A program made the position numbers and the translations under genes. Of a stretch of 39,903 nucleotides of DNA, positions 5,976-27,676 are shown piece by piece. The notes beneath the pieces are model-generated. The model was given only the letters and a program-made list of their open reading frames with translations. It searched no databases and was not told the origin of the DNA. The number at the start of each line of letters is the position of its first letter. Within the stretch, counting starts at the first letter, position 1. This stretch comes from Thermoproteota archaeon (GTDB lineage: Archaea > Korarchaeota > Korarchaeia > Korarchaeales > Korarchaeaceae): contig JAOZGP010000025.1 in assembly GCA_027491735.1 (NCBI GenBank), positions 1-39,903 of the forward strand, written 5' to 3'.

Positions 5976-6020
5976 GAGTCGACACCTCCACCTCTTTCCG
6001 TCTAAGGATAGAAAGGGTTT

Positions 6021-6028
6021 TTTATAAA
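6021..6028 (-). promoter_or_regulatory. TATA-like box for the YeiH-family gene
   Basis: TTTATAAA, followed by an A-tract on the minus strand, lies so that transcription would begin near 5999. That leaves a leader of about 24 bases carrying GGAGGTG before the TTG at 5975. This supports the shortened start. Confidence 0.5.
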
Positions 6029-6267
6029 TCTTCTCATGAATACCTCGAGCAGTTGCAGGCAATCTCCTACCGATTTTTGGGTAAAAGTTTCTCCTAAAAA
6101 CAGCTTCACAGTCTCCCTGCTTACCAGACCGCCGATTTAAGCCCAAAAAACAAACAGTCCTTTAAGTTCATCTAAATTCACCAACTATAGGGATTTTTCG
6201 GAGGAAATCGTGCTCTGCTTTGGCATCTAGGCAAAAGGTGTGAGGTGCTTTGTGATTTTACGAGATG

Positions 6268-6277: not shown

Positions 6278-6299
6278 AATCTGAAGTGAATCTGCCTTG

Positions 6300-7733: not shown

Positions 7734-7743
7734 GGTGAAGGTT

Positions 7744-8040
7744 ATGAATCCCAACGAGATGAAGGATCAGATTATGAAAGAACTCTCCAGATGCTCCTAT
7801 TGTGGGCTCTGTGAGTGGGTATGCCCAGTTCTGAGGGTACAACTGAAGAGGAACTACGGACCCAGGGGTAGATTGAGCACGATGATCTTCGCCTTAAGGG
7901 ATGGACTCTGGACGGAAGCTGGTGAAAGCGGTGTGTTCACATGTCTCCTTTGTGGTGCCTGCTCAACTCAGTGTCCAGCGGGCATAAAACTTGAGGAGGT
8001 GATAAGGCTCTTCAGGTACTACCTGACTCTCACCGGCTAG
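7744..8040 (+). CDS. Small two-cluster [4Fe-4S] protein (GlcF N-terminal type)
   Basis: The 98-residue protein has two 4Fe-4S motifs, CSYCGLCEWVCP and CLLCGACSTQCP, with the spacing seen at the N-terminus of GlcF, HdrC and DsrK-type subunits. It stops where GlcF would continue into two CCG domains. It probably carries electrons from the FAD dehydrogenase just upstream. Open frame begins at a GTG at 7735. I prefer the ATG at 7744 because GAGGTGA lies 5 bases before it. The missing CCG part may be supplied by the LutA-like gene 3 kb away on the other strand. It could also be a natural HdrC-like protein. Confidence 0.8.
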   Translation: MNPNEMKDQIMKELSRCSYCGLCEWVCPVLRVQLKRNYGPRGRLSTMIFALRDGLWTEAGESGVFTCLLCGACSTQCPAGIKLEEVIRLFRYYLTLTG

Positions 8041-8194
8041 GCCATTAACACGAGAAGATTTATTTTATTATAAATAAATAGAGCACTTTGGTATCATTCT
8101 CTTTTTTATCTGAAATTATATGTGTAATAAAAAGAGACTTCCGTTAGATAGGACGACTAAAATAAAATAGTAAAATAAAAAAGAAGTGTGAGAT

Positions 8195-9664
8195 TTAAAT
8201 TATGCCTAGCTTGCTGAGAAGTCCGTAGAAGAAGAATATGCCACAGAATATCATAAAGATTACTGCTATCGCCTCCAAAGCAGCGTGAGCCTTGTACTCC
8301 TTGGGAAGTTTTCTGTTCAGGTATATGATTATGGGCACGCCGAAGAGAGCGCCGAAGTTGGCCATGTTAGCTGATATCACTATAAGCCAGAACGGCCTTG
8401 TCAGGTTTATTGCTATAGCAGTCCAGCCGAGGAAAACAGCGCATATCACGTAGTAAACTCTTCTGACATCTCCCTTGGCCCATTCTCTTATACCCTCAAT
8501 CTTCCAGAGAGCATCAGTTGTATTTCTGGTTATAACATCGACTAGTCCCACCTGAGTCTTGAAGAGCGTTAGAGCTCCGACCAACAGGCCAAACCACCAT
8601 CCAAATGATCCCCAGACTTTGCTCAACATTTTGCCTTCGTAAGCAGCAACGCCCCAAGCAGGTAAACTGGATCCCACTGGTAGTAATGCGTGAGCCAAGA
8701 GCCCTGGGAGTATCATTCCTATAATGGCCCCAACGAAGAATATGTAAACCTGCTCTTCCATCATGAACTTATACCATCTCTTCATCACACTGACGTTCTC
8801 CTCAGTCAACTTAGGTATTTTCCCTACTGGAGACAGAGGGACCTTGGTTCCTCCTATTATGGCTGGAATGTAGCCGACGAGTGAGCCCACACCGTATCCC
8901 TTATCTCTATAATAGTTCGCTAGTACATAGTTTAGACCCGTAGCGAATCCAGTGAAGCCAACAACTCCGGCTAGTATGCTCGGATCCACGTTGGGAGGTA
9001 TATACCCGAAACTCACAAGTCCCACAGCTGCCTCAGCCCAGACCTTAGCCGGCACCAGTATGATGTCAAAGATCACGAAGGAGCCGAAGATCACAATGAG
9101 GTCAAACCAATTCCAGATCTCGAGCGTTCTAGAAATTTTAGCGCCTAATGATATTATTATAAAGCTAAGTATTATCAGAACATAAGCCCATGTCTTTGTA
9201 AGCCAGGCATCCTGAGGACCGGCAACTCTACCTAGTTGAGCTGATGCTACAGCTGTAGCTGAGGTAGCAGCCCATCCAGGCCATCCAAAGCAGAACCACA
9301 TTGCTAGAAGGCCAAGTATTCCTATCCATATGCCTCCTCTAAGCATTCCTATTATCGGTATTTCTCCGGTAGTTATGGTCCATTTAGCCCACATGTAGTT
9401 ATATGATGTCTGTAACACCGCTGAAACCACTATCAACCAGAGAAGACTCATGCCATGCTTGGCGAAAAGTGATGGTCCAAGTAAATACTCCCCACTGCCT
9501 ATCGACATCCCCAGAGCTATTATAGCTGGTCCGTACACCTTCAATATCTTGTCCTTGAGTCCTATCTCCTTGAGGTGGAAAAACTCCTCAGGAGAAGGTA
9601 CCTTGTCCACAACTTCTAACGGAGGCCCTCTACCTAGGGGGTACGTCTCGCTATTCTGGCTCAT
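8195..9664 (-). CDS. Nramp/SLC11-like membrane transporter
   Basis: This 489-residue protein has about 11-12 membrane helices. GPAIIALGMSIGSGEYLLGPSLFAKHG near residue 45 resembles the unwound first helix of the Nramp/LeuT fold, but the metal-binding DPGN motif of true Nramp is replaced by GSGEY. A metal ion is therefore a less certain substrate. It lies between the lactate dehydrogenase pair and the LutB-LutA pair. A hydroxyacid or other organic anion import role would fit, but this is only positional inference. An inverted repeat at 9681-9703 lies just before its ATG, suggesting regulated expression. Confidence 0.6.
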   Translation of the reverse strand: MSQNSETYPLGRGPPLEVVDKVPSPEEFFHLKEIGLKDKILKVYGPAIIALGMSIGSGEYLLGPSLFAKHGMSLLWLIVVSAVLQTSYNYMWAKWTITTGEIPIIGMLRGGIWIGILGLLAMWFCFGWPGWAATSATAVASAQLGRVAGPQDAWLTKTWAYVLIILSFIIISLGAKISRTLEIWNWFDLIVIFGSFVIFDIILVPAKVWAEAAVGLVSFGYIPPNVDPSILAGVVGFTGFATGLNYVLANYYRDKGYGVGSLVGYIPAIIGGTKVPLSPVGKIPKLTEENVSVMKRWYKFMMEEQVYIFFVGAIIGMILPGLLAHALLPVGSSLPAWGVAAYEGKMLSKVWGSFGWWFGLLVGALTLFKTQVGLVDVITRNTTDALWKIEGIREWAKGDVRRVYYVICAVFLGWTAIAINLTRPFWLIVISANMANFGALFGVPIIIYLNRKLPKEYKAHAALEAIAVIFMIFCGIFFFYGLLSKLGII

Positions 9665-9680
9665 ACCTCGACGGGCGAAT

Positions 9681-9703
9681 GGGAAAAATAAAAAATTTTT
9701 CCC
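9681..9703. promoter_or_regulatory. Perfect inverted repeat upstream of the transporter (candidate operator)
   Basis: GGGAAAAAT and ATTTTTCCC flank a 5-base A-rich spacer, 17 bases before the transporter ATG on the minus strand. It overlaps the only TATA-like A/T tract there, so a dimeric regulator could block or aid transcription. Confidence 0.4.
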
Positions 9704-9818
9704 ACGTAAGATATCTTCAAATCAACTAGAATACGAGTTGAACGCATATATCGAGCATTCTGAACATAAATGTCGACAGTTAAGGCATATTAATTTAATT
9801 AACCACAACTTATTAGCT

Positions 9819-9840
9819 GAAATTAGCCGAAGCTAATTTC
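9819..9840. other. Perfect 9-bp stem-loop in an AT-rich gap
   Basis: GAAATTAGC and GCTAATTTC are separated by the tetraloop CGAA. It lies in the 256-base AT-rich gap between the LutB-like stop and the transporter start. It could be part of a terminator for the lutA-lutB transcript (minus strand) or an operator. The 12-base word AGCTGAAATTAG that enters this stem recurs at 12931-12942. Confidence 0.35.
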
Positions 9841-9920
9841 CTAATAATAAAATAGTTAATTTAGAGGAGTTATTCAGATAAAATAATATTATATTTAAAA
9901 ATTTTAGTTAGTACGATTTT

Positions 9921-11096
9921 CTAAAACTTAGATTTAATGTACCTGATTATGGAGGGCATATCTATCTTGCTCGGACAGACCTCTCTGCACTTTCTGCATC
10001 CCAGACAGAACATCGCTAGAGGGGCTGCCTTGTCTATTCCTTCGATTATAGCCGTCCATCCTATACCCATAGGTCCTCCATAGACCCTTCCTCCCCATGT
10101 GTTGCCGACGAGGTCCCATATAGGGCACTCGGCCTGACATCTTCCGCATCTCAAACAGAGAAGCTGCTCCCATAAGTGTTCATCTTTGAGAGCCTTCCTC
10201 CTTCCTCCGTCATACAAGATGACATGCATTTCTTTGGCTCCGTGAACACCATATACCCGATGGTACTCTATGTCAGCTGTGCTGCTCGGCCCTGCTATGA
10301 CGGACAGGTAGGTTGGCGGGTAGAGGCCTGCATATCCTGACTGGACTAGGGCTTGGAAGAACGCATCCTTCATAGTGGGCATTATTTTTTCGACTCCTGT
10401 TATCGATATGAGCACTGGCGGTAGGTTAGTGGAGTTCCTTATGTTCCCCTCATTAGAAATCAGAAAGATCGCTCCAGAATCCGCAGCTATGGAATTAGCA
10501 CCTGAGATTCCTACGTCGGCTTTGATAAACTTCTCTCTCAGGAACAAACGAACTCTGGCCGTCAGCTCCTCTATACTCATATCGTCTCTCACATCTGGAT
10601 CTATCTTTTTCAGAAGACGGGCAGCCTCCTCTTTAGTTATGTGGATTGCTGGGGCTATAGCGTGCATGGGCTTTCCTCCGGAGAGCTGAATAAGGAGCTC
10701 CCCTAAGTCTGTCTCATAGACTTCATGTCCCTTAGCTATAAGATGCTCTCGTAACTGGATTTCTTCAGTCACCATGGACTTAGCCTTTACTATGAGCTTT
10801 CTCCCATCTCCAATTATATCATCTACAATCCTCTTTACCTCATCTGGAGATTTGGCTAGGTAAGCATGTCCGGCACACCGTCTTACACTCTTCATAGTTT
10901 CATCTATGTAATAATCTATATTTTGGAAAACCTCTTCCTTCACCTTTCTCACATGCTCCGCCAACTCAACGAGGTAGGGCCATGTGTCCAGAGCCCTAAT
11001 GGAAGCTGGAGCTAGATTTCTCACGGATCTCTCCAAACCGGTTCTCAGATTCCCATTATCCAATGCAGAAAATATTGTTGAGAGTATATCCCCCAT
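9921..11096 (-). CDS. lutB: LutB-like LUD-domain Fe-S protein
   Basis: LutB-type subunit of the LutABC L-lactate oxidation system. Residues about 60-290 form the LUD domain (VGISGANSIAADSGAIFLISNEGN is the typical signature). The last 70 residues carry two 4Fe-4S motifs, CLRCGRCQAECPIWD and CLGCRKCREVCPSK. The open frame begins at a GTG at 11105, but the ATG at 11096 has GAGGTGA upstream and is the better start. It follows the LutA-like gene by about 16 bases, so they form one transcript. No separate LutC is seen in the window. With the GlcD-type enzyme nearby, the region could oxidise both lactate isomers. Confidence 0.85.
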   Translation of the reverse strand: MGDILSTIFSALDNGNLRTGLERSVRNLAPASIRALDTWPYLVELAEHVRKVKEEVFQNIDYYIDETMKSVRRCAGHAYLAKSPDEVKRIVDDIIGDGRKLIVKAKSMVTEEIQLREHLIAKGHEVYETDLGELLIQLSGGKPMHAIAPAIHITKEEAARLLKKIDPDVRDDMSIEELTARVRLFLREKFIKADVGISGANSIAADSGAIFLISNEGNIRNSTNLPPVLISITGVEKIMPTMKDAFFQALVQSGYAGLYPPTYLSVIAGPSSTADIEYHRVYGVHGAKEMHVILYDGGRRKALKDEHLWEQLLCLRCGRCQAECPIWDLVGNTWGGRVYGGPMGIGWTAIIEGIDKAAPLAMFCLGCRKCREVCPSKIDMPSIIRYIKSKF

Positions 11097-11112
11097 TGAG
11101 GTCACCTCTCTT

Positions 11113-12081
11113 CTACAAATAAGCCTCTCCCAGATGCAGCGAGATGTCCTTCACTTGCACCCTCCCCTGTCCAGCTCTACTCAAGCTAACATAGCAGAAA
11201 GGACACATGGTGACCACGTTTTCACACACTTCCTTCAGCTCTGATACCCTGAGAGAGGCCACTTCCTCGGAGAGCCTCGGAGATAGAGACTCGATCGGAC
11301 CTCCACAACAGAAAGTCAATCTTTTCGTCCTGAAGGGCTCCCTTATTTCAACTCCAGCTCTGCTGAGAAGCTCTCTGGGTTGATCTATTATCTCAAGATA
11401 CCTGGCGTAGTAGCAGGGATCGTGCACCGTGACAGAGATCTCCAACTTTCTTTTTGGTGAGATTTCTTTCTCAACTAGAATCTCCAGGTAGTTCTCGACT
11501 TCTAGATCAAATCCATCCACAAACTTCGGGTACACCTCGCGGAGCACGTGGGTTGTGTGTGGGTCGATGGTAATGACCTTCCCCACACCGTTTCTTTTGA
11601 AGATATCGTAGACTCCCTTAGCATGTTTTGCGAAATCCTTGTCCCTTCCAAAGTCGTACAGGAGGGTTCCGGCGTAGAGCTCGTCGTCATAGAGGTATCC
11701 AAATTTTATATCAGCTTTCTTGATTAATGCAGCGATTCTCTTCAAAATTTCGTGCTGTGAGGATATCTCCTGCTGAGATACTCCGGAAGCCAACTTGGAT
11801 ACATCGAAAACGGAGCTCACCATCTTACCCAACTTGAGAAGGGCGCCTCCAACGGATCCTCTCTCCAGCTTCTCTAAATACTTCGTGGAGGCAATCGTAT
11901 AGGGGACCATCTGGTAGAGAAGGCTTGTGTAAAGGACTGTCTCTCCTCCCTTAGGGAGGTTGATATCTCTGGCCCAGCCACTAGCTGCATCGCTCGGAAT
12001 GGAGATGGGGGATCCCTTTCTGAGAGTGTTCCTAACAATCATACTCAGCACATCTTTGGTAGGCAGGGGCAAACTCCTCAC
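11113..12081 (-). CDS. lutA: LutA/HdrB-like CCG-domain protein with a degenerate first CCG motif
   Basis: The C-terminal half holds a complete cysteine-rich CCG motif: C223, 34 residues, C258-C259, 33 residues, C293xxC296 (HDPCYYARY, FCCGGPIES, MCPFCYV). This is the non-cubane cluster signature of HdrB, GlpC and LutA. Where the first CCG motif should be (residues 134-146, ELYAGTLLYDFG) the cysteines are replaced, so one of two cluster sites is lost. At 322 residues it is longer than usual LutA because of an N-terminal stretch of about 100 residues with no recognisable motif. GTG at 12081 and a TTG a few codons later are both possible starts. It is transcribed with the LutB-like gene. Confidence 0.75.
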   Translation of the reverse strand: MRSLPLPTKDVLSMIVRNTLRKGSPISIPSDAASGWARDINLPKGGETVLYTSLLYQMVPYTIASTKYLEKLERGSVGGALLKLGKMVSSVFDVSKLASGVSQQEISSQHEILKRIAALIKKADIKFGYLYDDELYAGTLLYDFGRDKDFAKHAKGVYDIFKRNGVGKVITIDPHTTHVLREVYPKFVDGFDLEVENYLEILVEKEISPKRKLEISVTVHDPCYYARYLEIIDQPRELLSRAGVEIREPFRTKRLTFCCGGPIESLSPRLSEEVASLRVSELKEVCENVVTMCPFCYVSLSRAGQGRVQVKDISLHLGEAYL

Positions 12082-16234: not shown

Positions 16235-17596
16235 GTGAAGCTCCCTAGAATACTGATATCAGCTCCTAGTGGTAAGAGTGGCAAGACCTCAGTGACTCTT
16301 GGGTTGATAAGGGCACTTAAGGAAGAGGGGTTCAGAGTTCAACCCTTCAAGGTCGGGCCTGACTTCATAGATCCTTCCTACCACACGTTCATCTCCGGCA
16401 GGACCTGTCGAAATTTGGACTCGTATATGTTCACCAGGAATGTCCTTCTCTGGTCCTTGTTGAGAAACTCGAGGGACGCCGACATAGCCGTGATAGAAGG
16501 CTTCTTCGGATTTTACGACAGTCCAGACGGTGTAAGCGAAAGAGGTAGCACAGCCGAGGTCTCTAAATTACTCAAAACTCCGGTGATACTGGTTTTGAAT
16601 GCTGAGAGGGTGAACAGGGGGCTGGCGGCCATAGCAAAGGGACTGGTGAGTTTCGACGAGGAGGCCCCTATAAGAGGGGTCATAGTGAACAATGTGGCCG
16701 GGGAGAGGCAAGAAGGAAAAATAAGGAGGATCTTCAGAGAACTGGCTCCTGAAGTGGAGCTTCTCGGGGTTGTTATGAGGAGCGAGACCGTGAGGGAGGT
16801 CATGAAGTACAGACATCTCGGCCTCATACCCATTGCTGAGAGGAGTAGAGAATTGGAGAAGCTGGTGGAGGTGTCTAAAAGAACTTCAGAAAGATTGGAC
16901 CTGGATAGGATAAAGGAGATAGCTTCTGAAGCTCCAGAAGTAGATTTTCCTGACGTGAGGGAACCTGAAGCCACATTTGACGTGGATGTGGCTGTGTTGA
17001 TGGATGAGGCCTTCTCCTTCTACTATCCCGAGAATATAGAGTTCCTACAGAGGCACGCGAGGAGGGTACTCTATGTGGACGCCATCAGGGACAATGAACT
17101 CCCTGAAGTGGACCTCCTCTACATAGGAGGAGGCTTTCCGGAGGTGTATGCCCCCCTCCTAGAGGAGAACGAGGAGTTCAGGAGATCTATTCTCAGAGAG
17201 CACGCAAGAGGAATGAGGGTATATGCTGAGTGCGGGGGGTTGATGTACTCCTGTAGCCGTTTGAGGATTGACAGGAGCTATGAGATGCTTGGGCTCGTGG
17301 AGGCAGAGGTGATCATGCAGAGAAAACCAGTGGGACACGGGTACACTCATCTGAGAGCAATAAGAGAAAACCCTCTATGCAAGGTGGGCAAGGAGATAGT
17401 GGGACATGAGTTCCATCACTCCAAGCTTGTGCTCGAGGAGGACGTCGAGTTTGCCTTCGAAATGCTCCGGGGCTACGGAGTAGACGGCCTCCACGATGGA
17501 ATAATGAAGGAGAACCTTCTCTGCAACTATACGCACCTACACACGCTCCATGATTTCTCTCTATTTGAAAATCTCCTCAGATCTACACAGCGGTGA
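16235..17596 (+). CDS. CbiA-family a,c-diamide synthase (CfbB/DsrN type)
   Basis: ATP- and glutamine-dependent amidation of the a and c acetate side chains of a sirohydrochlorin-type tetrapyrrole. N-terminal P-loop SAPSGKSGKTSVT, the KVGPDFIDPSYHT block, and the C-terminal glutaminase with nucleophile Cys in YAECGGLMYS and His in VGHEFHHSKL are all intact. Length 453 residues is typical. Three family roles fit: CbiA for cobalamin, CfbB for coenzyme F430, and DsrN for siroheme amide of DsrAB. Position beside the dsr locus favours DsrN, while the methanopterin/F420 genes keep CfbB open. GTG start at 16235. It overlaps the convergent KaiC-like gene by 14 bases. Confidence 0.9.
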   Translation: MKLPRILISAPSGKSGKTSVTLGLIRALKEEGFRVQPFKVGPDFIDPSYHTFISGRTCRNLDSYMFTRNVLLWSLLRNSRDADIAVIEGFFGFYDSPDGVSERGSTAEVSKLLKTPVILVLNAERVNRGLAAIAKGLVSFDEEAPIRGVIVNNVAGERQEGKIRRIFRELAPEVELLGVVMRSETVREVMKYRHLGLIPIAERSRELEKLVEVSKRTSERLDLDRIKEIASEAPEVDFPDVREPEATFDVDVAVLMDEAFSFYYPENIEFLQRHARRVLYVDAIRDNELPEVDLLYIGGGFPEVYAPLLEENEEFRRSILREHARGMRVYAECGGLMYSCSRLRIDRSYEMLGLVEAEVIMQRKPVGHGYTHLRAIRENPLCKVGKEIVGHEFHHSKLVLEEDVEFAFEMLRGYGVDGLHDGIMKENLLCNYTHLHTLHDFSLFENLLRSTQR

Positions 17597-18893: not shown

Positions 18894-19024
18894 TAATTCT
18901 CCTCGCTTGTGGTCGAGCTGTTGACGATCTTCTCTGGGTTGGTAAACACCTTACATATAAGAATAACAGCTTTTCCTGATTTAAAGACTGTGACAGACTT
19001 CCTTAAATCGTCGAAGGGGAAAGG

Positions 19025-19034
19025 TTATATATAA
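19025..19034 (+). promoter_or_regulatory. TATA box of the dsrC-Rieske-cytochrome b-dsrMK operon
   Basis: TTATATATAA is preceded by a purine-rich GGGGAAAGG that resembles a BRE. Transcription should begin near 19055, leaving a leader of about 10 bases that starts around GGTGAAAA before the ATG at 19065. It is the strongest TATA box by eye in the window. Confidence 0.65.
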
Positions 19035-19064
19035 TACCCTTTTTCTCAAACTTGGTGAAAACAC

Positions 19065-19385
19065 ATGCCCGAGATCGAGTTTAAGGGGCAGAAGTATATA
19101 GTGGATGAGGATGGATTCCTCCAGGAACCTGAAAAGTGGAGCCCGGAGTTGGCTGAGCATATGGCTAAAATCTATGAGGGCATAGATAAGCTGACTGACG
19201 AGCATTGGAAGGTCATAAACTTCCTCAGGGACTACTTTAAGAAGTACGGTATAGCTCCACCGATAAGAATTCTCTGTAAGACTACTGGGTTCAGTCTACA
19301 GAAGATATACGAGCTCTTTCCCTCTGGGCCTGCCAACGGAGCCTGCAAGGTTGCGGGCCTGCCCAAACCGACCGGCTGTGTGTGA
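19065..19385 (+). CDS. dsrC: DsrC sulfur-carrier protein
   Basis: Small cytoplasmic protein that takes sulfite-derived sulfur from DsrAB as a trisulfide between its two C-terminal cysteines, to be reduced by DsrK. The IEFKGQKYIVDEDGFL start, the WSPELAEHMA helix, the KYGIAPPIRIL segment and the C-terminal arm GACKVAGLPKPTGCV are all diagnostic. Both redox cysteines, C94 and the penultimate C105, are present 10 residues apart. It is therefore a true redox-active DsrC, not a TusE- or RspA-like relative lacking one cysteine. Full length at 106 residues. ATG start with GGTGA a few bases before it. First gene of the operon. Confidence 0.96.
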   Translation: MPEIEFKGQKYIVDEDGFLQEPEKWSPELAEHMAKIYEGIDKLTDEHWKVINFLRDYFKKYGIAPPIRILCKTTGFSLQKIYELFPSGPANGACKVAGLPKPTGCV

Positions 19386-19445
19386 AAGCTTTATCAAAAT
19401 CTCTTCATTTTTTCCCACTAAAAACTCAAAAACGGGTGACTTGGA

Positions 19446-20084
19446 TTGGCTGAGGAGGGAGGAGTTTTCAAGAAGAATAAAGATAAAGAGAAGGAAGTTG
19501 ATGAGGGCAGGAGAACTTTTCTGAAAACCTTAGCTGTCTCCTCTGTGATATTGGCCTCAGCGGATCTGCTCAGCATCCTGAGAGTCCTCGGACCAGCCAA
19601 GCTCAAGATACCGAAGTGGCCCAAACTGAAGATATGCAACGTAAAAGACCTCAAACCTAAAGTGCCCGTTGAGTTCAACTACCCGTTGACGATAACCCCG
19701 AATCTCCTGATAAAACTTGGCAAAAAAGTCCCAGGTGGTGTTGGACTCGATCAGGACATAGTAGCTTACAGCAGGCTGTGTCAGCATCTGGGGTGCATAG
19801 TGGAATTCCTGCCGGAGGGCAAATGTGACAAATATCCGGACAGGGACATACTCTACTGTCCCTGCCACGCCGGTTACTATGACGCGGACGACAAGGCGAA
19901 GGTCTTAGCGGGACCACCACCTTACCCACTTCCTCAAGTCATACTCGACGTCGACGAAAACGGTGACATATATGCCGTCAAGATGGGGCCGCCTGTGATA
20001 TATGGTGTCACACCGAAGGGGTCCGATGAGGTCTGGCGTGATCTTCTCCTAGCTCCAACGAAGATAGTTAAAGGCACCGGGTGA
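19446..20084 (+). CDS. Rieske [2Fe-2S] protein with Tat-like signal
   Basis: The N-terminus has a twin-arginine motif (EGRRTFLKTLAVSS, residues 20-33) followed by a hydrophobic stretch, so it is probably Tat-exported and membrane-anchored. Cluster ligands are C112 and H114 in LCQHLGC, and C138 and H141 in CPCHAG. C117 and C140 form the stabilising disulfide typical of bc1/b6f Rieske proteins. It begins with TTG, 60 bases after dsrC, with GGGTGA upstream, and is followed at once by cytochrome b. Together they form a Rieske/cytochrome b quinol-oxidising module. Placing such a module inside a dsr operon is unusual (see findings). Confidence 0.93.
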   Translation: MAEEGGVFKKNKDKEKEVDEGRRTFLKTLAVSSVILASADLLSILRVLGPAKLKIPKWPKLKICNVKDLKPKVPVEFNYPLTITPNLLIKLGKKVPGGVGLDQDIVAYSRLCQHLGCIVEFLPEGKCDKYPDRDILYCPCHAGYYDADDKAKVLAGPPPYPLPQVILDVDENGDIYAVKMGPPVIYGVTPKGSDEVWRDLLLAPTKIVKGTG

Positions 20085-20089
20085 TCTCT

Positions 20090-21559
20090 ATGAGCGAGGA
20101 GCAGAAAAGCCCTATAGCAAGATTCGTCGAATGGATTGACTCCAGATTCGGTTTTTCCGATACCATATTGAGACCTGGACCGAAATACACATTCACACCT
20201 ACTTATTGGCTGGGAGGTCTTGCCTTCTTAGTATTTATGCTCCAAGGAGTGACTGGAGCAATAATTCTCCTGTTCTACATCCCGAGCACCGACGCTGCCT
20301 ATGAGCTCACGTCCAAGATGATCTCGTCAGTTCCCTTCGGAGCACTCCTCCAGACGGTTCATCTTTACGGCGGATACGCGATGATAATCCTGGCGCTGAT
20401 TCACTTCCTTCGTTGTTACTTCGAGGGAGTTTACAAGAAGCCTAGGGAGCTGATGTGGATGGTGGGAATGCTGATGGGCCTCTGCACCCTCTTCATGGGG
20501 TTTACGGGTTACATACTTCCATGGTCCGTGATATCTGGGTGCGCTGCGCACATCTCCCTGGGGATACTCGACTATCTCCCGCCTCAGATAGGGGGGCCTC
20601 TTAAAACATTCATAGTTGGTATAGGCACAGACGAAGAGATTCTCAGGAGGTTCTGTGCTTATCACGTCGTCATACTCCCAGCAGCGGTATTTCTCCTGTT
20701 TTTGATAAAGCTTCACATGTTTGAGGTCCACGGGCCTGCCGAGCCTGTCACTCCTAAACATCACCTTCCTGATGATGCATTCGAGAGGAGGCCTTGGTTC
20801 CCTGACGTGCTTGTGTACCTCCTCATGCAGGGGTTTGTCTTCATAGCAGTTCTTCTGCTGGTTTCAGCCCTGTTTCCACTGGTGCTTCCACCTAAATTCT
20901 CGATGGAAGCAGCTGCTTCAGTTCATCCGGAGCCTGAGTGGTACTTCATGTGGATGTACACTCTTCTCAGGATAAACATCTTCAGCGGCACTTATGGGAC
21001 CCTGGCGGTGATTTGTACAGTTGGGCTGATAGGCCTGATAATATTCTTCCTGCCGTTCGTGGACAGGTCAGAAGCCAGACATCCTCTCGAAAGACCAACT
21101 GCAACGACGCTTGGTCTGATAGGCATAGCTGAGTTCATAGTACTGATAGTCTGGGGATACCTAACCCCTGGCGAGAACCTGCCCACCGAACAGGCGGTCC
21201 TTGTGCTAGGTCTTCCAGCGCTGATAATAGCCCTGATCTGCAAATACTACTTTAACAGCATACTTGTCGAGAGAGGCATAAGGACTCCCAAGAAATTCGC
21301 GTTTGAGTTCCTGAGCGCTGTAGCTAGAAGGAGGTACCTGAGTGTAGTGGCCTTCAGTCTCCTTGTCAGCATGACCTCCTGTACAGCTGCTGGAGCTGTG
21401 AGCGATGCTGCTTGCGGAAATATGCTCAGCGCAGCGATGGGAACAGTGTTCACTGGCCTGTTGTTCTTTTTGGCCTTTGCTCTGATGTACCTCACAGACA
21501 GGACAGCCAATGTGCCGATGAAGCGTAAATTTGGTCCGTTGGAGATGGGAGGGGAGTGA
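20090..21559 (+). CDS. Cytochrome b (bc1/b6f type, fused N- and C-terminal domains)
   Basis: The 489-residue di-heme membrane protein oxidises quinol at the Qo site, which is marked by PEWY (residues 282-285) and by GYILPW (140-145). First-pair heme ligands are H91 and H105 with the normal 13-residue gap. The second helix D gives H192 and H209, a 16-residue gap instead of the usual 13-14. About 12 helices are predicted, so it carries cytochrome b6 plus subunit IV and extra C-terminal helices. GTG at 20081 overlaps the Rieske stop, and the ATG at 20090 is an equally good start. The 3' end overlaps the next ATG. Confidence 0.93.
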   Translation: MSEEQKSPIARFVEWIDSRFGFSDTILRPGPKYTFTPTYWLGGLAFLVFMLQGVTGAIILLFYIPSTDAAYELTSKMISSVPFGALLQTVHLYGGYAMIILALIHFLRCYFEGVYKKPRELMWMVGMLMGLCTLFMGFTGYILPWSVISGCAAHISLGILDYLPPQIGGPLKTFIVGIGTDEEILRRFCAYHVVILPAAVFLLFLIKLHMFEVHGPAEPVTPKHHLPDDAFERRPWFPDVLVYLLMQGFVFIAVLLLVSALFPLVLPPKFSMEAAASVHPEPEWYFMWMYTLLRINIFSGTYGTLAVICTVGLIGLIIFFLPFVDRSEARHPLERPTATTLGLIGIAEFIVLIVWGYLTPGENLPTEQAVLVLGLPALIIALICKYYFNSILVERGIRTPKKFAFEFLSAVARRRYLSVVAFSLLVSMTSCTAAGAVSDAACGNMLSAAMGTVFTGLLFFLAFALMYLTDRTANVPMKRKFGPLEMGGE

Positions 21560-21825
21560 TGTTGCCGGATAGGATGGTTCTCGCTTGTGAGATCCTCGTG
21601 GTGATCCAACTGATAATCTCCATACTGATAGTGACACTGGACCCCATACTTCAGTGGCAGCCCTTCGCGATAGGGTTGGCCGTGGTGTTGATAATAGCGG
21701 CTATGGTGCTCTATGCGTATCACAATGCATCCGTTGAGTTCGATGAAGAGTGGCTGGCAGGAGCTGTCTCGCTGATAGCTCTAATAATACTGTTCGGTTT
21801 CTTCTATATCATAAAGGGAGGTTGA
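21559..21825 (+). CDS. Small three-helix membrane protein of the Rieske/cyt b-DsrMK operon
   Basis: About 88 residues with three hydrophobic helices (around 8-28, 35-57, 64-86) and a short acidic loop (VEFDEEW). No heme or Fe-S ligand pattern is evident, and I recognise no family. Its ATG overlaps the stop of cytochrome b (GTGATG), with GGGAGGGG just before it. The DsrM-like gene starts 6 bases after its stop. This tight coupling suggests it is a structural subunit joining the cytochrome b and DsrM modules, but no direct evidence of function exists. Confidence 0.75.
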   Translation: MLPDRMVLACEILVVIQLIISILIVTLDPILQWQPFAIGLAVVLIIAAMVLYAYHNASVEFDEEWLAGAVSLIALIILFGFFYIIKGG

Positions 21826-21830
21826 CGAAG

Positions 21831-22691
21831 GTGGATCCATGGGCTTTCTTCGTCGGAGATGTGCTCTCCTATATAGCGGTCATAGTGTTCGTGATTGGAG
21901 TTTTGGCAAGAGTCGGCAAGTGGCTCTCCGTACCAGTGCCCCTTAAGGTACCGCTCACTCCCGGGCCCACAACCTACCCTGGAGTAGTCATCAGGCTTGC
22001 CAAGGAGGTCTTCCTATTCAGAAGCTTGTTCAAGGGGGAGAAAAAGCTCTGGGTAGGAGCGTGGACCTTCCACATATTTCTGCTGACCACGCTCATAATA
22101 CACGTAATCAACCTGCTTTACCACGATCTGTGGAGCGTGATAGGCTACGGATGGTATGAGTTCGCCGGGTATACGGGGATTATACTCTTCGGGGCCCTGG
22201 TGTTCTTACTCGCTAGGAGGATTACTGCTCAGCACATGAGGTACCTCTCAAAGCTCCCGGATTACTTCATATTGATTCTCCTGATGGCGATAGTTTTCAT
22301 GGGTAACTACATAAGATCCTTCTCGGGAGTCGACGTGAAGCAGGTCTCCGCTTGGCTCTATAGCCTGATAGCCCTTCATCCGATACCGCCCCCCAGCGAT
22401 CCATACTTCCTCACTCATGTTCTCCTGGCTGAGCTACTGATTATGTACATTCCGTTCAGCAAGATAATGCACTTCATAGGGATCTTCGTCAGTCCCACAA
22501 GAAACCAGAGGAATGACGGCAGGATGAGAAGACACAGAAACCCGTGGAACTTCCCTGTAAAGATAATGAGCTGGGATGAGTACTGGGCCAAATTCGGGGA
22601 TCAGCTTAGAGGTATAGAGGGAGAAAATGAGGGAGAAGCTAGAGAAGAACAGAAATCACTCACGGGAGATAAATCCGGGGTAGGAGGTTGA
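21831..22691 (+). CDS. dsrM: DsrM-like membrane cytochrome b (NarI/HdrE family)
   Basis: The 286-residue protein has five to six helices and histidines placed as in the NarI/DsrM/HdrE family (FHIFLLTTLIIHVINLLYH, HVLLAELLIMYIPFSKIMHF). It binds heme b and passes quinol electrons to DsrK. The frame opens at 21750 inside the small membrane gene, but GTG at 21831 has GGGAGG 9 bases upstream and gives the expected N-terminus (VDPWAFFVGDVLSYIA). The C-terminal tail after residue 250 is charged and soluble. The Fe-S partner DsrK starts 15 bases later. Confidence 0.85.
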   Translation: MDPWAFFVGDVLSYIAVIVFVIGVLARVGKWLSVPVPLKVPLTPGPTTYPGVVIRLAKEVFLFRSLFKGEKKLWVGAWTFHIFLLTTLIIHVINLLYHDLWSVIGYGWYEFAGYTGIILFGALVFLLARRITAQHMRYLSKLPDYFILILLMAIVFMGNYIRSFSGVDVKQVSAWLYSLIALHPIPPPSDPYFLTHVLLAELLIMYIPFSKIMHFIGIFVSPTRNQRNDGRMRRHRNPWNFPVKIMSWDEYWAKFGDQLRGIEGENEGEAREEQKSLTGDKSGVGG

Positions 22692-22706
22692 GTGGAGGGT
22701 TGATCT

Positions 22707-24176
22707 ATGAGGTTGGACTTCTCAAATCCTGGTAAGAAGTGGAAGCTTTACGCGAGCCTTTTGAGCGATCAGAAGGAGTTAGGGCTTCCGTTTCCAAGAG
22801 AGTGGACGCATGAGAACTTTAAACTTCCTCCAAACTGGCGTGAAATCTTTCTAAAAAACATGGAGAGTGTTTTGAAGAAATATAGGTCGGTCAGACTGTT
22901 CATGGACCTCTGCGTTCACTGCGGTGCATGCGCCGACAAGTGCCCCTTCTTCTTGGCCACAAGAGATCCTCACAACATGCCTGTGGCCAGGCAGGATCTC
23001 TTCAGATCGGTCTACAAGAAGTTCTTCGATGCCTCCGGAAAGCTCCTTGGAACCACTGCTGGAGCGGTGAAGGATCTGGATGAGAAGGTGGTAGACGACT
23101 GGTACACCTACTTCTATCAATGCTCGGAGTGCAGGAGATGCGGGGTATTTTGTCCATACGGTATAGATACAGCAGAGATAACAATTGCTGCCAGGGAGGT
23201 TTTGCTCTCAATAGGACTGAGCACTAAGTCCACCACACAGTCCATAAACAAGTGCGAGTTCATAGGGAACCACTTGGGAATACCTCCAGCAGCGATGGCC
23301 AACTCTTTGGAGTTCATGGAGGAAGAGCTCAGGGAAGAGGGGTGGGATGTCGAGATCCCACTCAACAAGAAGGGGGCGGAGATACTGTTTGTCACGCCAT
23401 CGGCCGACTACTTCGGAGATCCACATTGGTACACGATGAAGGGGTATGTGAAGCTGTTCCATGTGCTGGACCTAGACTACACTCTAAGCACCTACGCCAG
23501 CGAGGGAGGGAACTTCGGGCTTTTCCTGAGCTACGAACACATGAAGAAGATAAACGCCAAGATATATAAGGAGGCAAAGAGGCTGGGCGTCAAGTGGATA
23601 CTAGGAGGGGAGTGCGGCCACATGTACCGGGTTGTTCACAACTTCATGGGGAGCATACACGAGGAGCCACCTGACTTCCTGGAGGAACCCGTCTCTCCTA
23701 TAACAGGGACGAAATTTAAGAACGCCGTCTCAACGAAGATGGTACATATATGTGAGTTCACGGCTGATCTCATAAAACACGGCAAGTTGAAGCTCGACCC
23801 ATCGAAGAATGATCAGTATGTGGTCACATATCACGATTCGTGCAATCCCGCTAGGGCAATGGGCCTCATAGAGGAGCCCAGATACATACTTAGGCATGTG
23901 TGCAACCACTACGTCGAGCTGGATCCGAGCGTCAACAGAGAGAGGACCATCTGCTGCACGGCTGGAGGCGGACTCCTCACAGATGAGTGTCTCGAGCTGA
24001 GGTATCAGGCTATAAAACCGAAAATAGATGCGATAAAGAGATCAGGAGCCAACTTCCTGGCACTCATATGTGCCATAGATAAGGCGGCCTTCCCAACCTA
24101 TATGAGGCATTACAAACTTCCGATAAGAGTGGGAGGAGTCCACGAGCTCGTCGGAAACGCTTTGGTTCCTCCATAA
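22707..24176 (+). CDS. dsrK: DsrK-like (HdrD-type) Fe-S protein
   Basis: Catalytic partner of DsrM, thought to reduce the DsrC trisulfide. Two 4Fe-4S motifs: C69, C72, C75, C79 (CVHCGACADKCP) and C139, C142, C145, C149 (CSECRRCGVFCP). A CCG-type site follows with C379 (HDSCNPAR), C416-C417 (TICCTAGGG) and C455 (LICAIDK). The last position reads CxxD where HdrB/HdrD have CxxC. An earlier GGECGHM at 301-306 stands in place of the first CCG. At 489 residues it matches DsrK. ATG start. A T-rich stretch (TTTTTCAACAACATTTTTT) follows the stop and may end the operon. Confidence 0.9.
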   Translation: MRLDFSNPGKKWKLYASLLSDQKELGLPFPREWTHENFKLPPNWREIFLKNMESVLKKYRSVRLFMDLCVHCGACADKCPFFLATRDPHNMPVARQDLFRSVYKKFFDASGKLLGTTAGAVKDLDEKVVDDWYTYFYQCSECRRCGVFCPYGIDTAEITIAAREVLLSIGLSTKSTTQSINKCEFIGNHLGIPPAAMANSLEFMEEELREEGWDVEIPLNKKGAEILFVTPSADYFGDPHWYTMKGYVKLFHVLDLDYTLSTYASEGGNFGLFLSYEHMKKINAKIYKEAKRLGVKWILGGECGHMYRVVHNFMGSIHEEPPDFLEEPVSPITGTKFKNAVSTKMVHICEFTADLIKHGKLKLDPSKNDQYVVTYHDSCNPARAMGLIEEPRYILRHVCNHYVELDPSVNRERTICCTAGGGLLTDECLELRYQAIKPKIDAIKRSGANFLALICAIDKAAFPTYMRHYKLPIRVGGVHELVGNALVPP

Positions 24177-24230
24177 CTTTTTCAACAACATTTTTTATCT
24201 TTCCTCCTTTAACTCCTCTGGAGAGAGGTG

Positions 24231-24614
24231 GTGCATCTGCTTGAGGAGGAGAACGTCACTAGGATAGGTATAGTGGCCTGTGAGAAGATAATGGATCGCA
24301 TGTGCCTAGGCTGCCTGAAATGCTTTAAATCCGCCGAAGATGGAGGAGGAATGTTTATGAACTATGAAAGCGCCAGAATCATGTTCATAACCTCCTGTGG
24401 AGGATGCCCTGGGTTCGTCATAAACAAAGTAGGCATGATGCTGAGAGAGGCCAAGTACTATGGGGCCGAGATAGATGTCATACACATAGGAACTTGCATT
24501 AAGAGTGCTGTCGAGGTGGGCAAGTGCCCAATAAACATAAACGAGCTTAAGGCGAAGCTTGAGGAGAAGTTCAAGAAGCCTGTGGTTATCGGCACGCACC
24601 CCTATCCTCCATGA
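24231..24614 (+). CDS. CGGC-type cysteine-rich redox/metal protein
   Basis: About 128 residues. Cysteines occur in clusters: CLGCLKC, a CGGC core in FITSCGGCPGF, and GTCIKS followed by GKCP. This resembles the CGGC domain of uncharacterised archaeal and bacterial proteins that may bind a metal or a thiol ligand. It starts at one of two adjacent GTG codons (24228 or 24231) after GAGAGG, 50 bases after dsrK. The T-rich gap suggests partial separation from the operon. Position between dsrK and the ferredoxin makes a sulfur redox role plausible. No activity is known to me. Confidence 0.7.
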   Translation: MHLLEEENVTRIGIVACEKIMDRMCLGCLKCFKSAEDGGGMFMNYESARIMFITSCGGCPGFVINKVGMMLREAKYYGAEIDVIHIGTCIKSAVEVGKCPININELKAKLEEKFKKPVVIGTHPYPP

Positions 24615-24625
24615 GGAAGGCCACC

Positions 24626-24636
24626 TTTATATAAAA
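24626..24636 (+). promoter_or_regulatory. TATA box of the ferredoxin gene
   Basis: TTTATATAAAA lies 35-45 bases before the GTG at 24670. GAGGTG at 24662-24667 would sit in the short leader. The ferredoxin therefore seems to have its own promoter within the dsr region. Confidence 0.6.
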
Positions 24637-24669
24637 GCAGCAAGAGGTAAGGATGAGAGGTGAGGTGCT

Positions 24670-24885
24670 GTGGGAAAGAAGGTCCTGATTTCCGTCGATT
24701 ACGCATGCTGCCAGGGATGTGGTACTTGTGCGGCCATAGCTCCCGATCTATTCGAGCTTAGGGATGACGGCAAAGCTTGGCCGGTCCAAGACGTCGTTGA
24801 ACTCGATGATGAGCAGATGAAGCTCTTGGAGGAGGCCATGAGAGACTGTCCCCTGCACTGTATCAGTTACCAGGAACAAGAGTAG
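24670..24885 (+). CDS. Single-cluster [4Fe-4S] ferredoxin
   Basis: The 71-residue ferredoxin has CQGCGTC (residues 14-20) plus the distal CPLHC near residue 61, the pattern of a monocluster ferredoxin. A cysteine precedes the first ligand (ACCQGC) and another follows the last. It is acidic in its middle, as usual for soluble electron carriers. It lies 473 bases before dsrA. It is the obvious soluble electron donor or acceptor of the locus, for example for DsrAB. GTG start with a good Shine-Dalgarno sequence. Confidence 0.88.
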   Translation: MGKKVLISVDYACCQGCGTCAAIAPDLFELRDDGKAWPVQDVVELDDEQMKLLEEAMRDCPLHCISYQEQE

Positions 24886-25313
24886 GTTCTCTCGAGGAAT
24901 CATATGTCTTTAATTTTTCATACCGCCCTTCTCCTTTTTATAAAATCCGCTACATTTATGTGATGGATGAGCTAGCGTTCCACACGACCCTCCACTTGCT
25001 TCAACATAGCAGCTCCTTTTTTATGTACAGCTGAGCTTGTTCATAGATAGAAAGCTTTGAATACTTAAACTTCCCTCATCCATCGGCTTTAGCAGGCTTC
25101 TCGACTGCATGCCGGTCTAAGGTTGTGCTCGGTTACCACTAAAACCTGGTGAGTCAGCCTAAAACCTTCAGTGCGCTCCGAGCGGAACAATCAGTGACTC
25201 AGCGTGCGGAATGGAAGTCGCTACCTAAAGACTGCGGTGGCTCACAGAGTGGATCTGAAAAAAGTAAACCTTCCTGGAGGCATCATATCTTACGGAGTTT
25301 AGGTGTCCCCAAC

Positions 25314-25329
25314 TTAAAATTTAATAAAT
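25314..25329 (+). promoter_or_regulatory. TATA-like tract of the dsrAB operon
   Basis: TTAAAATTTAATAAAT lies about 37 bases before the dsrA ATG. Transcription would start near 25348, at the G-tract that serves as the ribosome-binding site. Confidence 0.5.
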
Positions 25330-25355
25330 TCCCCCTTTTGGATTGATTGGGGGAA
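25329..25355. promoter_or_regulatory. Inverted repeat between dsrA TATA tract and start codon (candidate operator)
   Basis: TTCCCCC (25329-25335) and GGGGGAA (25349-25355) are perfect inverted copies 13 bases apart. The right arm is also the Shine-Dalgarno sequence of dsrA. The left arm lies between the TATA tract and the expected start site, so protein binding here would control sulfite reductase transcription. Confidence 0.45.
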
Positions 25356-25358
25356 ATT

Positions 25359-26567
25359 ATGTCCCTTGAGTTGAATATCGACGAGTTGAAGAAAGAGCTG
25401 GAGAAGAAGCCCTGGCTTATTGAAGAGCTGAAAAAGGGACCTTGGCCCGGATTCATAACGGAGTACGAGAGAATGGCTGCGAGGAAGGAGATAACAAAGA
25501 GGATGATGTGTCAGCTGGAGCTCTCTTACAGGAATAGGACCACCCTCTGGAAGCACGGTGGTGCCGTCACCGTTAAGGGATACGGTGGAGGTGTTATAGG
25601 AAGGTACAGTATGATACCTGAGATAGGACCACCCTCTGGAAGCCATACTTTCAGGGTTAACCAGCCAGCTGGTTGGTTCTACAAAACGGACAAGCTCAGA
25701 GCCATATGTGAAGTCTGGGAGAAGTATGGGAGCGGTCTGATGAACCTACATGGCTCCACAGGAGACATAATCCTGCTTGGAGTGGACTCTCCAGAAGTTC
25801 AGGAATGCTTTGAGAATCTCTTGGATGTTGGCTACGACCTAGGAGGATCTGGCTCCGTTCTCAGGTCCTTAAGCTGTTGCAAAGGTCCGGCTCTATGTGA
25901 GTGGGCCCTGATAGACACACTTGACCTATACCACGATCTGACCATGACCTATCAGGACTACCTCCACAGGCCTCACTGGCCCTACAAGTTCAAGATCAAG
26001 ATCTCCGGTTGTCCGAATGATTGTGTGGCGGCTAAGGGAAGAGCTGATCTAGCTGTGATAGGCACTTGGAGGGATGAGATTCAGATAGACCAGGAGGAGG
26101 TTAGAAACTACGTAAAGAGCGGTCTCGACATAGAACATATAGTGAAGAACTGTCCCACAAAGGCCATGAGTTGGGACGGAAACGAACTTAAGATAGACAA
26201 CAAGGAGTGCGTCAGGTGTATGTACTGCATAAACAAGATGCCCAAGGCCCTCAAACCGGGTAAGGACAGGGGAGCTACCCTGCTGCTTGGAGGCAAAGCA
26301 ACAATCCTGCACACAGCCTTCATAGGCTGGGTTATAGTCCCATTCATGAAGATAGAGAAACCCTACAAGGAGCTCAAGGAGCTGTTGGAGAAGATGTGGG
26401 ACTGGTGGGATGAGCACGGCAGGTACAGGGAAAGGATTGGAGAGCTGGTCTACAGACTAGGGATGAACGAGTTCCTTAGAGCTGTCGGATTGCCCGCGGT
26501 ACCGCAGATGGTGTGGCACCCAAGGAACAACCCGTACATCTTCTGGAGGCCTGAGGAGCTGGAGTGA
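25359..26567 (+). CDS. dsrA: Dissimilatory sulfite reductase alpha subunit
   Basis: Catalytic complex with DsrB that reduces sulfite with siroheme and [4Fe-4S] clusters. Siroheme-coupled cluster ligands are C174 and C180 ([11 protein letters not shown]) and C218 and C222 (ISGCPNDCV). The inserted ferredoxin domain carries C265, C284, C287 and C290 ([15 protein letters not shown]). [11 protein letters not shown] and RVNQP are conserved DsrA segments. ATG at 25359 follows GGGGGA; an in-frame TTG at 25347 lies inside the Shine-Dalgarno region and is not used. It is 402 residues, near family length. A 21-base perfect repeat occurs twice inside the gene in different frames (see findings). Reductive versus oxidative type cannot be settled by eye. 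Confidence 0.97.
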
Positions 26568-26578
26568 GGTGATAAATT

Positions 26579-27676
26579 ATGGCGCAAAAAGTTAGTAAGG
26601 ATTACTGGAGCAAGATCATGAGGGGTCCCCCGTATTATGGGGACATGCTCCACCCCATCCTGAAGAAGAACTATGGCAAATGGAAGTATCACGAGCATGT
26701 GAAGCCGGGTGTGGTTAAATACGTGGCAGAATCCGGTGATGTCCTGTACACGGTCAAAGCTGCCATACCAAAGATTCTAAGCGTGGACACAGTCAGGGTC
26801 CTCTGCGACATAGCCGATAAATACAGCGACGGCTACCTCAAGTTCACCAGCAGACATGCTGCTCAGTTCCTCATTACCGATGAGAGCAAGATAGACCCGT
26901 TGATAGATGAGCTGGAGAGTAAGGGCTTCCCCGTTGGTGGTACTGGAAAATCCTTCAAGCCGATAATCCATACGATAGGCTGGAATCACTGCCACACCGC
27001 TATATATGATGCTCCTGGCCTGGCTAAGGCGATATCCGATGAGCTCTTTGAGTACTGGAAGAAACCTGATCTTCCTGCTAAGCTGAAGATAGCGTTGGCG
27101 TGCTGTCTTAACATGTGTGGTGCCATACATTGCTCCGACATAGCCATAGTTGGTCTGCACAGGACTCCTCCAGTGGTGGACGACGAGATTGTGTCCAAGT
27201 TTTGTGAGATACCCAGTACTATAGCTGGATGTCCTACCTTCGCACTCAAGCCCAAGGTTCTAGGTCCAGGAAAGAGGAGCATTGAGGTGGATCCAAAGAA
27301 GTGCATGGGATGCGGAAACTGCTATTCTGTCTGCCCCGGAATGAAGATCTTCAATCCGAAGTACGACTGTCTCTCCATATGGGTCGGAGGCAAGATACCC
27401 GACTCCAAGACGCCGCCCAAGTTCTCCAGGCTCATAATCCCGTATGTGCCCAACAATCCGCCGAGATGGCCTGAGGTAACTGAAATCGTGAAGAAGATAG
27501 TGGACCTCTGGAGGAAACACGCGAGACCTGATGAGAGGATAGGAGAGTGGATAGAGAGGATAGGCTGGGAGAGATTCTTCAAGCTTGCCGGCTTGGAGTT
27601 CACGGAGAAGCACATCGACACTTACCTGTTCTCCGTCAGGGACTTCAGGAGTTCCACCCAGTTCAAGTGGGAGTGA
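26579..27676 (+). CDS. dsrB: Dissimilatory sulfite reductase beta subunit
   Basis: Partner of DsrA, 11 bases downstream, with GGAGTGAGGTGA before its ATG. Cluster and siroheme-region cysteines C138 (WNHCHT), C175/C176, C180 and C185 (ACCLNMCGAIHCSDIAI) match archaeal DsrB. The ferredoxin domain holds C218, C242, C245, C248 and C252 (KKCMGCGNCYSVCPG). The IIPYVPNNPPRWPEV segment is a hallmark of DsrB. Full length at 365 residues. The operon ends here; no dsrD follows directly, and the T-rich run after the stop looks like a terminator. Confidence 0.97.
   Translation: MAQKVSKDYWSKIMRGPPYYGDMLHPILKKNYGKWKYHEHVKPGVVKYVAESGDVLYTVKAAIPKILSVDTVRVLCDIADKYSDGYLKFTSRHAAQFLITDESKIDPLIDELESKGFPVGGTGKSFKPIIHTIGWNHCHTAIYDAPGLAKAISDELFEYWKKPDLPAKLKIALACCLNMCGAIHCSDIAIVGLHRTPPVVDDEIVSKFCEIPSTIAGCPTFALKPKVLGPGKRSIEVDPKKCMGCGNCYSVCPGMKIFNPKYDCLSIWVGGKIPDSKTPPKFSRLIIPYVPNNPPRWPEVTEIVKKIVDLWRKHARPDERIGEWIERIGWERFFKLAGLEFTEKHIDTYLFSVRDFRSSTQFKWE

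Follow-up and report, generated by a model that had tools for sequence, protein, structure and literature searches.

The window analyzed here is a stretch of 39,903 nucleotides (contig JAOZGP010000025.1 of assembly GCA_027491735.1, forward strand) from a member of the genus Methanodesulfokora (Korarchaeia), and it carries an operon in which the genes for a Rieske [2Fe-2S] protein, a full-length cytochrome b and a small protein with three transmembrane helices, termed TM3, lie between dsrC and dsrM-dsrK. In most bacteria, DsrJ, DsrO and DsrP (JOP) form the partner set for sulfite respiration. We lean, with modest confidence, towards reading the gene products as a quinol:DsrC-trisulfide oxidoreductase whose DsrMK has the core of an archaeal complex III, instead of JOP, as its quinol-handling partner. 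Such a gene set suggests a route of electron entry into sulfite reduction that has not been described before. The means by which DsrMK links this reduction to the conservation of energy, and the contribution of JOP, are questions of the sulfur cycle, and a well-understood module in the place of JOP makes the role of JOP, whether as an outer-face quinol-oxidizing partner or otherwise, testable by comparison. If the reading is correct, this would be, as far as we have found, the first case of a disulfide/trisulfide reductase that is connected to a Rieske/cytochrome b system. The archaea concerned are hot-spring organisms that feature in arguments on how methane metabolism and sulfite respiration evolved early on, and dsr genes are already known from Methanodesulfokora and from the Aigarchaeota lineage now called Geocrenenecus (PMC10591310, PMC6053391, PMC9246946). 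In the literature covered, which did not include McKay et al. 2019, we found no account of Rieske and cytochrome b genes inserted between dsrC and dsrM.

The host genome (G000) is a draft metagenome-assembled genome (MAG) of 1.36 Mb that is 88% complete. On its plus strand, positions 19065-27676 encode, in order, dsrC, the Rieske protein, cytochrome b, TM3, dsrM, dsrK, a CGGC-domain protein, a ferredoxin, dsrA and dsrB. The original prediction of a continuous one-strand order from dsrC to dsrK was borne out, with successive gaps of 60, -4, -4, 5 and 15 bases. The first of these genes, dsrC (19065..19385), matches PF04358 with 128 bits (E=3e-37) and TIGR03342 above its cut-off, and alignment places both of its C-terminal redox cysteines, C94 and C105, 10 residues apart on a flexible arm. 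The probable NarI-like di-heme cytochrome b encoded by dsrM (21831..22691) scores above the cut-off for PF02665, and its match to NF038037 (164 bits, E=5e-48) lies under the 300-bit equivalog cut-off of that model; its invariant histidines are found by alignment at residues 81, 91, 98, 196 and 214. The dsrM start was corrected to 21831, a GTG following GGAGG that agrees with the homologues, from the 21750 given by a mechanical list of open reading frames (ORFs). The catalytic subunit encoded by dsrK (22707..24176) is of the DsrMKJOP type (NF045796, 591 bits against a cut-off of 400, and tree placement) and contains two 4Fe-4S motifs and a CCG domain. Neither DsrK nor DsrM matched any sequence in the PDB.

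The six-gene order dsrC-Rieske-cytochrome b-TM3-dsrM-dsrK was found in eight of eight genomes from two archaeal groups, namely the host, its two Methanodesulfokora congeners (G025 and G026) and five Geocrenenecus-type Caldarchaeales. The synteny that had been called for as a check among archaeal genomes is present in a second archaeal lineage. The phylum of the window contributed 29 genomes to the comparison set, while four of the Geocrenenecus-type carriers (Geocrenenecus dongiae, G. huangii, KUA_Bin06 and Aigarchaeota SKYB24) came from a cytochrome b scan of named genomes and the fifth (G063) from a search of the class. Among the seven relatives, the gaps between the six genes range from -8 to 45 bases, with the dsrC-Rieske gap measuring 12-13 bases in the two congeners. 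Both congeners retain the entire dsrC-to-dsrB cluster in unchanged order, and their identity to the proteins of the window is highest for DsrC (84-85%) and lowest for TM3 (35-38%). In the Geocrenenecus-type genomes, dsrAB is located away from the six-gene cluster and adjoins a divergent second dsrMK pair (~313 bits), which stands directly beside dsrAB at loci L133, L136, L139 and L140, so that these genomes have two DsrMK pairs each. Among 398 genomes of the Geocrenenecus phylum, DsrK above the model cut-off occurs in five, exactly those with an adjoining Rieske/cytochrome b, and 32 others with a weaker DsrK have no cytochrome b match nearby, as judged by coordinates.

Two arrangements of DsrMK, MK-only and MKJOP, have been described in large surveys (PMC10504309). 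In our DsrK tree, where seven rows represent the eight Dsr-linked loci, these loci are sister to the DsrMKJOP-type DsrK of Desulfobacterota (support 97/93) and stand apart from archaeal MK-only DsrK. The system thus resembles bacterial DsrMKJOP in its DsrK, which falls on the same branch at 52-59% identity, in having a probable DsrM, and in the nearness of dsrC and dsrAB, but it differs in that Rieske, cytochrome b and TM3 are encoded where DsrJ, DsrO and DsrP, none of which was found, would be. With archaeal DsrMK-only systems (the basal DsrMK clade, PMC10504309) it shares an archaeal host and the lack of JOP, whereas their DsrK forms a separate clade of ~35-40% identity and no cytochrome b match adjoins it in the 32 genomes mentioned above. 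Both the separate DsrK clade and the Rieske/cytochrome b/TM3 genes within the operon place the window system outside the archaeal DsrMK-only class. A loss of the last cysteine in the DsrK CCG motif, which reads CAID, was initially considered specific to the system, and this was rejected, as the MKJOP-type DsrK of Desulfobacterota is also CAID.

A DsrK of the bacterial DsrMKJOP kind would be expected to have JOP as its partners, yet JOP was not found. No dsrJOP was found near the operon, in line with the absence claimed for this locus, and the one full second DsrMK-like pair of the host genome has no JOP adjoining it. That pair (G000 C30, 16666-18009; L029, 8637-11049) scores 331 bits, has a full CCG motif and stands alone. 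The DsrJ model (NF038038) had no match in 10 genomes, although it matched no control genome either. DsrO and DsrP were not found beside DsrMK; the lone NrfD-family match of each Methanodesulfokora genome lies away from the dsr locus, and in G000 and G026 it belongs to a [NiFe]-hydrogenase operon, with the G000 match reaching 48 bits against a DsrP cut-off of 350. This [NiFe]-hydrogenase with its NrfD subunit is a plausible source of quinol. The predicted lack of a nearby cytochrome c also held, since no ORF of at least 70 amino acids in the window contains a CxxCH heme-c motif. None was seen in the inspected Methanodesulfokora stretches, and the inspected dsr neighborhoods contained none except in a MoaA-like protein of two relatives. 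Heme-copper oxidase (COX1) was absent from the three Methanodesulfokora genomes. The cupredoxin model PF00127 had no match in eight genomes, a result we rejected as proof that cupredoxins are lacking, since it failed to detect the fused cupredoxin that G413, described below, is known to carry.

The cytochrome b (20081..21559) is full-length, comprising both the N-terminal and the C-terminal domain as well as helices at the C-terminus, scores above the cut-offs of PF13631, PF00033 and PF00032, matches SoxC-like proteins with 213 bits and finds bc1/b6f structures with E values down to 3e-37; a single-chain structure prediction was too poor to use (predicted local distance difference test score of 46). 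Its quinol oxidation (Qo) motif PEWY (P285-E286-W287-Y288) is invariant in the eight Dsr-linked cytochromes b, and as both this motif and the ligands of the Rieske cluster are intact, the module is evidently not decaying. Its heme ligands are H94/H108 and H195, and the fourth position, aligned with the canonical helix-D histidine, is Lys210. All 15 aligned members of the family have lysine at this position, among them the DsrK-less ones (L038, L039, L148-L152), whereas the other Korarchaeota and SoxC-like proteins of the same search have histidine. Lys210 as an adaptation to DsrMK was therefore rejected. An entire archaeal cytochrome b family, with or without DsrMK, carries lysine for the inner-face heme histidine at a spacing as in b6, and no report of this was found in the literature covered.

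TM3 (21556..21825) matches no described family and was traced by alignment and a hidden Markov model (HMM) built with its relatives. The HMM of the Dsr-linked TM3 proteins matches homologues at L038, L039, L180, L183 and L184 (E values of 2e-7 to 1e-5), all of which adjoin Rieske/cytochrome b genes unlinked to Dsr. One of these (G413; L180, 6662-7303) carries a C-terminal cupredoxin beside its Rieske protein and cytochrome b; the Dsr-linked TM3 proteins have no cupredoxin domain. The L180 Rieske protein has an N-terminal extension. By these sequence criteria, TM3 is a subunit of the archaeal complex III family. In the cytochrome b tree, the eight Dsr-linked sequences group together as a single clade (86/89). 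The Rieske data agree in splitting seven unlinked sequences from the Dsr-linked ones (93/96), and both results are consistent with one recruitment. DsrMK of bacterial type therefore came together with complex III of archaeal type, probably on a single occasion, with moderate support from these trees. Compared with archaeal complex III of the SoxL-SoxC kind in other Thermoproteota, the module has homologous Rieske, cytochrome b and TM3 components in the same order and a Qo motif that is PEWY or PDWY in that kind. It differs in being joined to dsrC and dsrMK, in a Rieske protein that looks lowered in potential, and in having no fused or neighboring cupredoxin, heme-c or CbsA-like acceptor.

The Rieske protein (19446..20084; PF00355, 31.7 bits against a cut-off of 20.3) is the single Rieske match of the host genome in a profile search, and its nearest solved structures are AioB and SoxF. 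It begins with a twin-arginine translocation (Tat)-type N-terminus, RRTFLK, and its cluster should therefore face the outside. The motifs CQHLGC and CPCHAGYY supply the four cluster ligands (C-x-H...C-x-x-H), which are retained in every protein compared, as well as the disulfide pair, with glycine replacing the serine that raises the potential. This serine is found in none of the eight Dsr-linked Rieske proteins versus six of seven unlinked relatives (Fisher's p = 0.0014, which is overstated because the proteins are related and the changes few), and the disulfide pair is absent in five of the eight. The Rieske proteins of other Korarchaeota are likewise without the serine. In yeast, loss of this serine lowers the potential by ~130 mV (PMC12954380). 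These features suggest a lowered potential for the Dsr-linked Rieske proteins, which would match a poor electron acceptor.

One proposal for bacteria is that quinones cycle between DsrMK and DsrJOP (PMC8076601). In the present system, the analysis establishes directly which genes are present, how they are ordered and conserved, which motifs they encode and how they are related, and from these we infer a physical complex with the following electron path and direction. Menaquinol, for which the membrane [NiFe] hydrogenase with its genes at another locus is one possible source, would be oxidized by cytochrome b at its outer-face Qo site, the one marked by PEWY. Of the two electrons, one would pass to the Rieske cluster, which would dock on DsrM, and the two b hemes of DsrM would carry it across the membrane to DsrK. 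DsrK would then reduce the DsrC trisulfide that DsrAB makes from sulfite, with the release of sulfide. The other electron could return to quinone via the cytochrome b hemes or move sideways to DsrM. TM3 would serve as a structural complex III subunit whose own copper acceptor domain was lost or never present. With DsrK inside, the Rieske cluster outside and the hemes of DsrM as the bridge, the arrangement would constitute a redox loop; the amount of proton motive force it might generate, like any Q-cycle or bifurcation, is likewise hypothetical. Next to MK-only and MKJOP, DsrMK-Rieske-cytochrome b-TM3 could even represent a third type of DsrMK complex, a single membrane assembly that arose when DsrMK of bacterial type joined a complex III of archaeal type and in which a lowered-potential Rieske protein hands quinol electrons via DsrM to the DsrC trisulfide. 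We advance this only tentatively, and with less confidence than the replacement of JOP itself.

Several points weigh against the replacement of JOP by a complex III core. Firstly, menaquinol has a potential of about -75 mV and sulfite reduction one of about -116 mV (standard values). Almost no energy is left for a Q-cycle between a menaquinol donor and a DsrC trisulfide acceptor, which speaks against a Q-cycle of the conventional high-potential kind with DsrC as its end point, even though so small a yield fits a Rieske protein of lowered potential. The benefit of the module is left unexplained, and this weakest point is the reason that our confidence is modest. Secondly, co-transcription does not prove that the products form one complex. 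Thirdly, the Methanodesulfokora Rieske proteins keep the disulfide and a tyrosine, as in Rieske proteins of fairly high potential, and the Rieske changes represent few evolutionary events. Lastly, four of the five Geocrenenecus-type genomes encode a clear heme-copper oxidase (COX1), making an aerobic role possible, and with incomplete MAGs and a weak cupredoxin search the absence of an acceptor is not proven. In the light of these results, the bc1/b6f-like pair of the original prediction, now with TM3 added, does stand in the place of JOP, whereas the physical complex and the bifurcation that it envisaged stay hypothetical. The proton-motive Q-cycle it proposed fares worse, given the unfavorable energetics, the lack of a high-potential acceptor among the Methanodesulfokora genes searched, and a Rieske protein that looks lowered in potential.

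The same observations lend some credit to a different explanation, in which one promoter serves two separate complexes, a stand-alone complex III with an outer acceptor and an ordinary quinol-oxidizing DsrMK, that are merely co-regulated. Besides the retained disulfide and tyrosine and the heme-copper oxidases, such a scenario can draw on the occurrence of Rieske/cytochrome b/TM3 alone in relatives without DsrK (L038/L039, L148-L152) and on the TM3-cupredoxin fusion of one relative. However, it does not readily account for a module that sits between dsrC and dsrM in all eight genomes with overlapping or nearly abutting genes from Rieske to DsrK, for the loss of the serine throughout the Dsr-linked branch when nearly all unlinked relatives keep it, or for the lack of a detectable acceptor in Methanodesulfokora, where the cupredoxin search was weak. 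We therefore regard it as unlikely, albeit the most serious competitor. An anammox-like bifurcation is improbable. In that scenario, the Rieske electron would end up on a high-potential acceptor, and the low-potential one would exit cytochrome b on its inner face, at the heme with the lysine position, to enter DsrM/DsrK and to lower the potential that DsrC can draw on. For anammox bacteria, it has indeed been proposed that a Rieske/cytochrome b complex delivers electrons to a reductase on the cytoplasmic side (PMC12954380), and the inner-face ligand is lysine across the whole cytochrome b family. Nevertheless, the lysine is shared with relatives without DsrK and so is no Dsr adaptation, the Rieske sequences look lowered rather than raised, and Methanodesulfokora yielded no high-potential acceptor. 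Slightly less probable still is reverse operation, with DsrC-bound sulfur being oxidized, DsrMK reducing quinone, and Rieske/cytochrome b passing the electrons to oxygen or another acceptor. The heme-copper oxidases of most Geocrenenecus-type genomes would suit it, but published work groups the DsrAB of both lineages with reductive enzymes of the bacterial type (PMC10591310, PMC6053391), Methanodesulfokora has no COX1, and a disulfide-free Rieske protein would be a poor carrier towards a high-potential acceptor. A chance neighborhood or assembly artifact, conceivable in draft metagenome assemblies, is refuted by the synteny and has a negligible probability, as the identical order recurs in seven further genomes of two lineages.

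The replacement of JOP by a complex III core has partial counterparts in other organisms. The anammox Rieske/cytochrome b complexes (PMC12954380) share the idea of joining to a cytoplasmic-side reductase, but theirs is a putative NAD(P) reductase with a Rieske potential of >+300 mV, whereas here the reductase is DsrMK and the Rieske protein looks lowered. The Rieske/cytochrome b-nitrate reductase systems of haloarchaea and Methanoperedens (PMC4683180) similarly link the module to an anaerobic terminal reductase in archaea, although their acceptor is an outside nitrate reductase, reached via cytochromes c in Methanoperedens, rather than the intracellular DsrMK/DsrC. In two Desulfobacterota genomes (G450, L252, C337; G487, L253, C170), a single cluster encodes DsrM and DsrK, then a small lipoprotein carrying two CxxCH motifs, Rieske, a cytochrome b that includes a heme-c domain, and succinate dehydrogenase, with fumarase ahead of it in G450. 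Its DsrK branches outside both the MKJOP-type and the archaeal MK-only groups, the sequences indicate a degenerate Qo motif in its cytochrome b, and the reading of its DsrK is broken. This cluster looks like a separate DsrMK-Rieske-succinate dehydrogenase system, and its independence implies that DsrMK-type pairs met Rieske/cytochrome b at least twice, which counts in favor of the proposed replacement of JOP. A deltaproteobacterial locus with a cytochrome b near dsrAB (L051) was rejected as a second example, since that cytochrome b belongs to a succinate dehydrogenase operon. Beside dsrAB-dsrN-dsrC, the locus encodes a succinate dehydrogenase iron-sulfur subunit with a fused C-terminal Rieske domain (6639-7892), followed by the cytochrome b, which has a heme-c motif.

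Other features of the window complete the dsr region. A TATA-box-like stretch, GGAAAGGTTATATATAATA, is located 5' of dsrC (19020..19035, plus strand) and was read from the sequence as a candidate operon promoter; a sigma-70/terminator scan, which is ill-suited to archaea, gave promoter counts near chance. Upstream on the plus strand, a dsrN/cobB-like a,c-diamide synthase gene (16235..17596; TIGR00379, 448 bits) is a neighbor that is retained in relatives. Downstream, the genes for the CGGC-domain protein (24228..24614; PF08821, 74 bits) and the 4Fe-4S ferredoxin (24670..24885; PF13459) are both syntenic in the two congeners, such that the CGGC-domain protein sits between dsrK and the ferredoxin in all three Methanodesulfokora genomes, and they are followed by dsrA (25347..26567; TIGR02064, 547 bits) and dsrB (26579..27676; TIGR02066, 494 bits). 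Near this dsr island, the minus strand encodes a PF03601 (YeiH-like) membrane protein (4539-6146), possibly a sulfite transporter, and similar-looking proteins of ~460 amino acids are found near dsrAB at the Geocrenenecus-type loci L133 and L140. Positions 6297-12081 encode an FAD-linked oxidase of the lactate/glycolate type, a LUD-domain iron-sulfur protein and a CCG protein; together these make up a cluster for the oxidation of organic acids, which could supply quinones with electrons.

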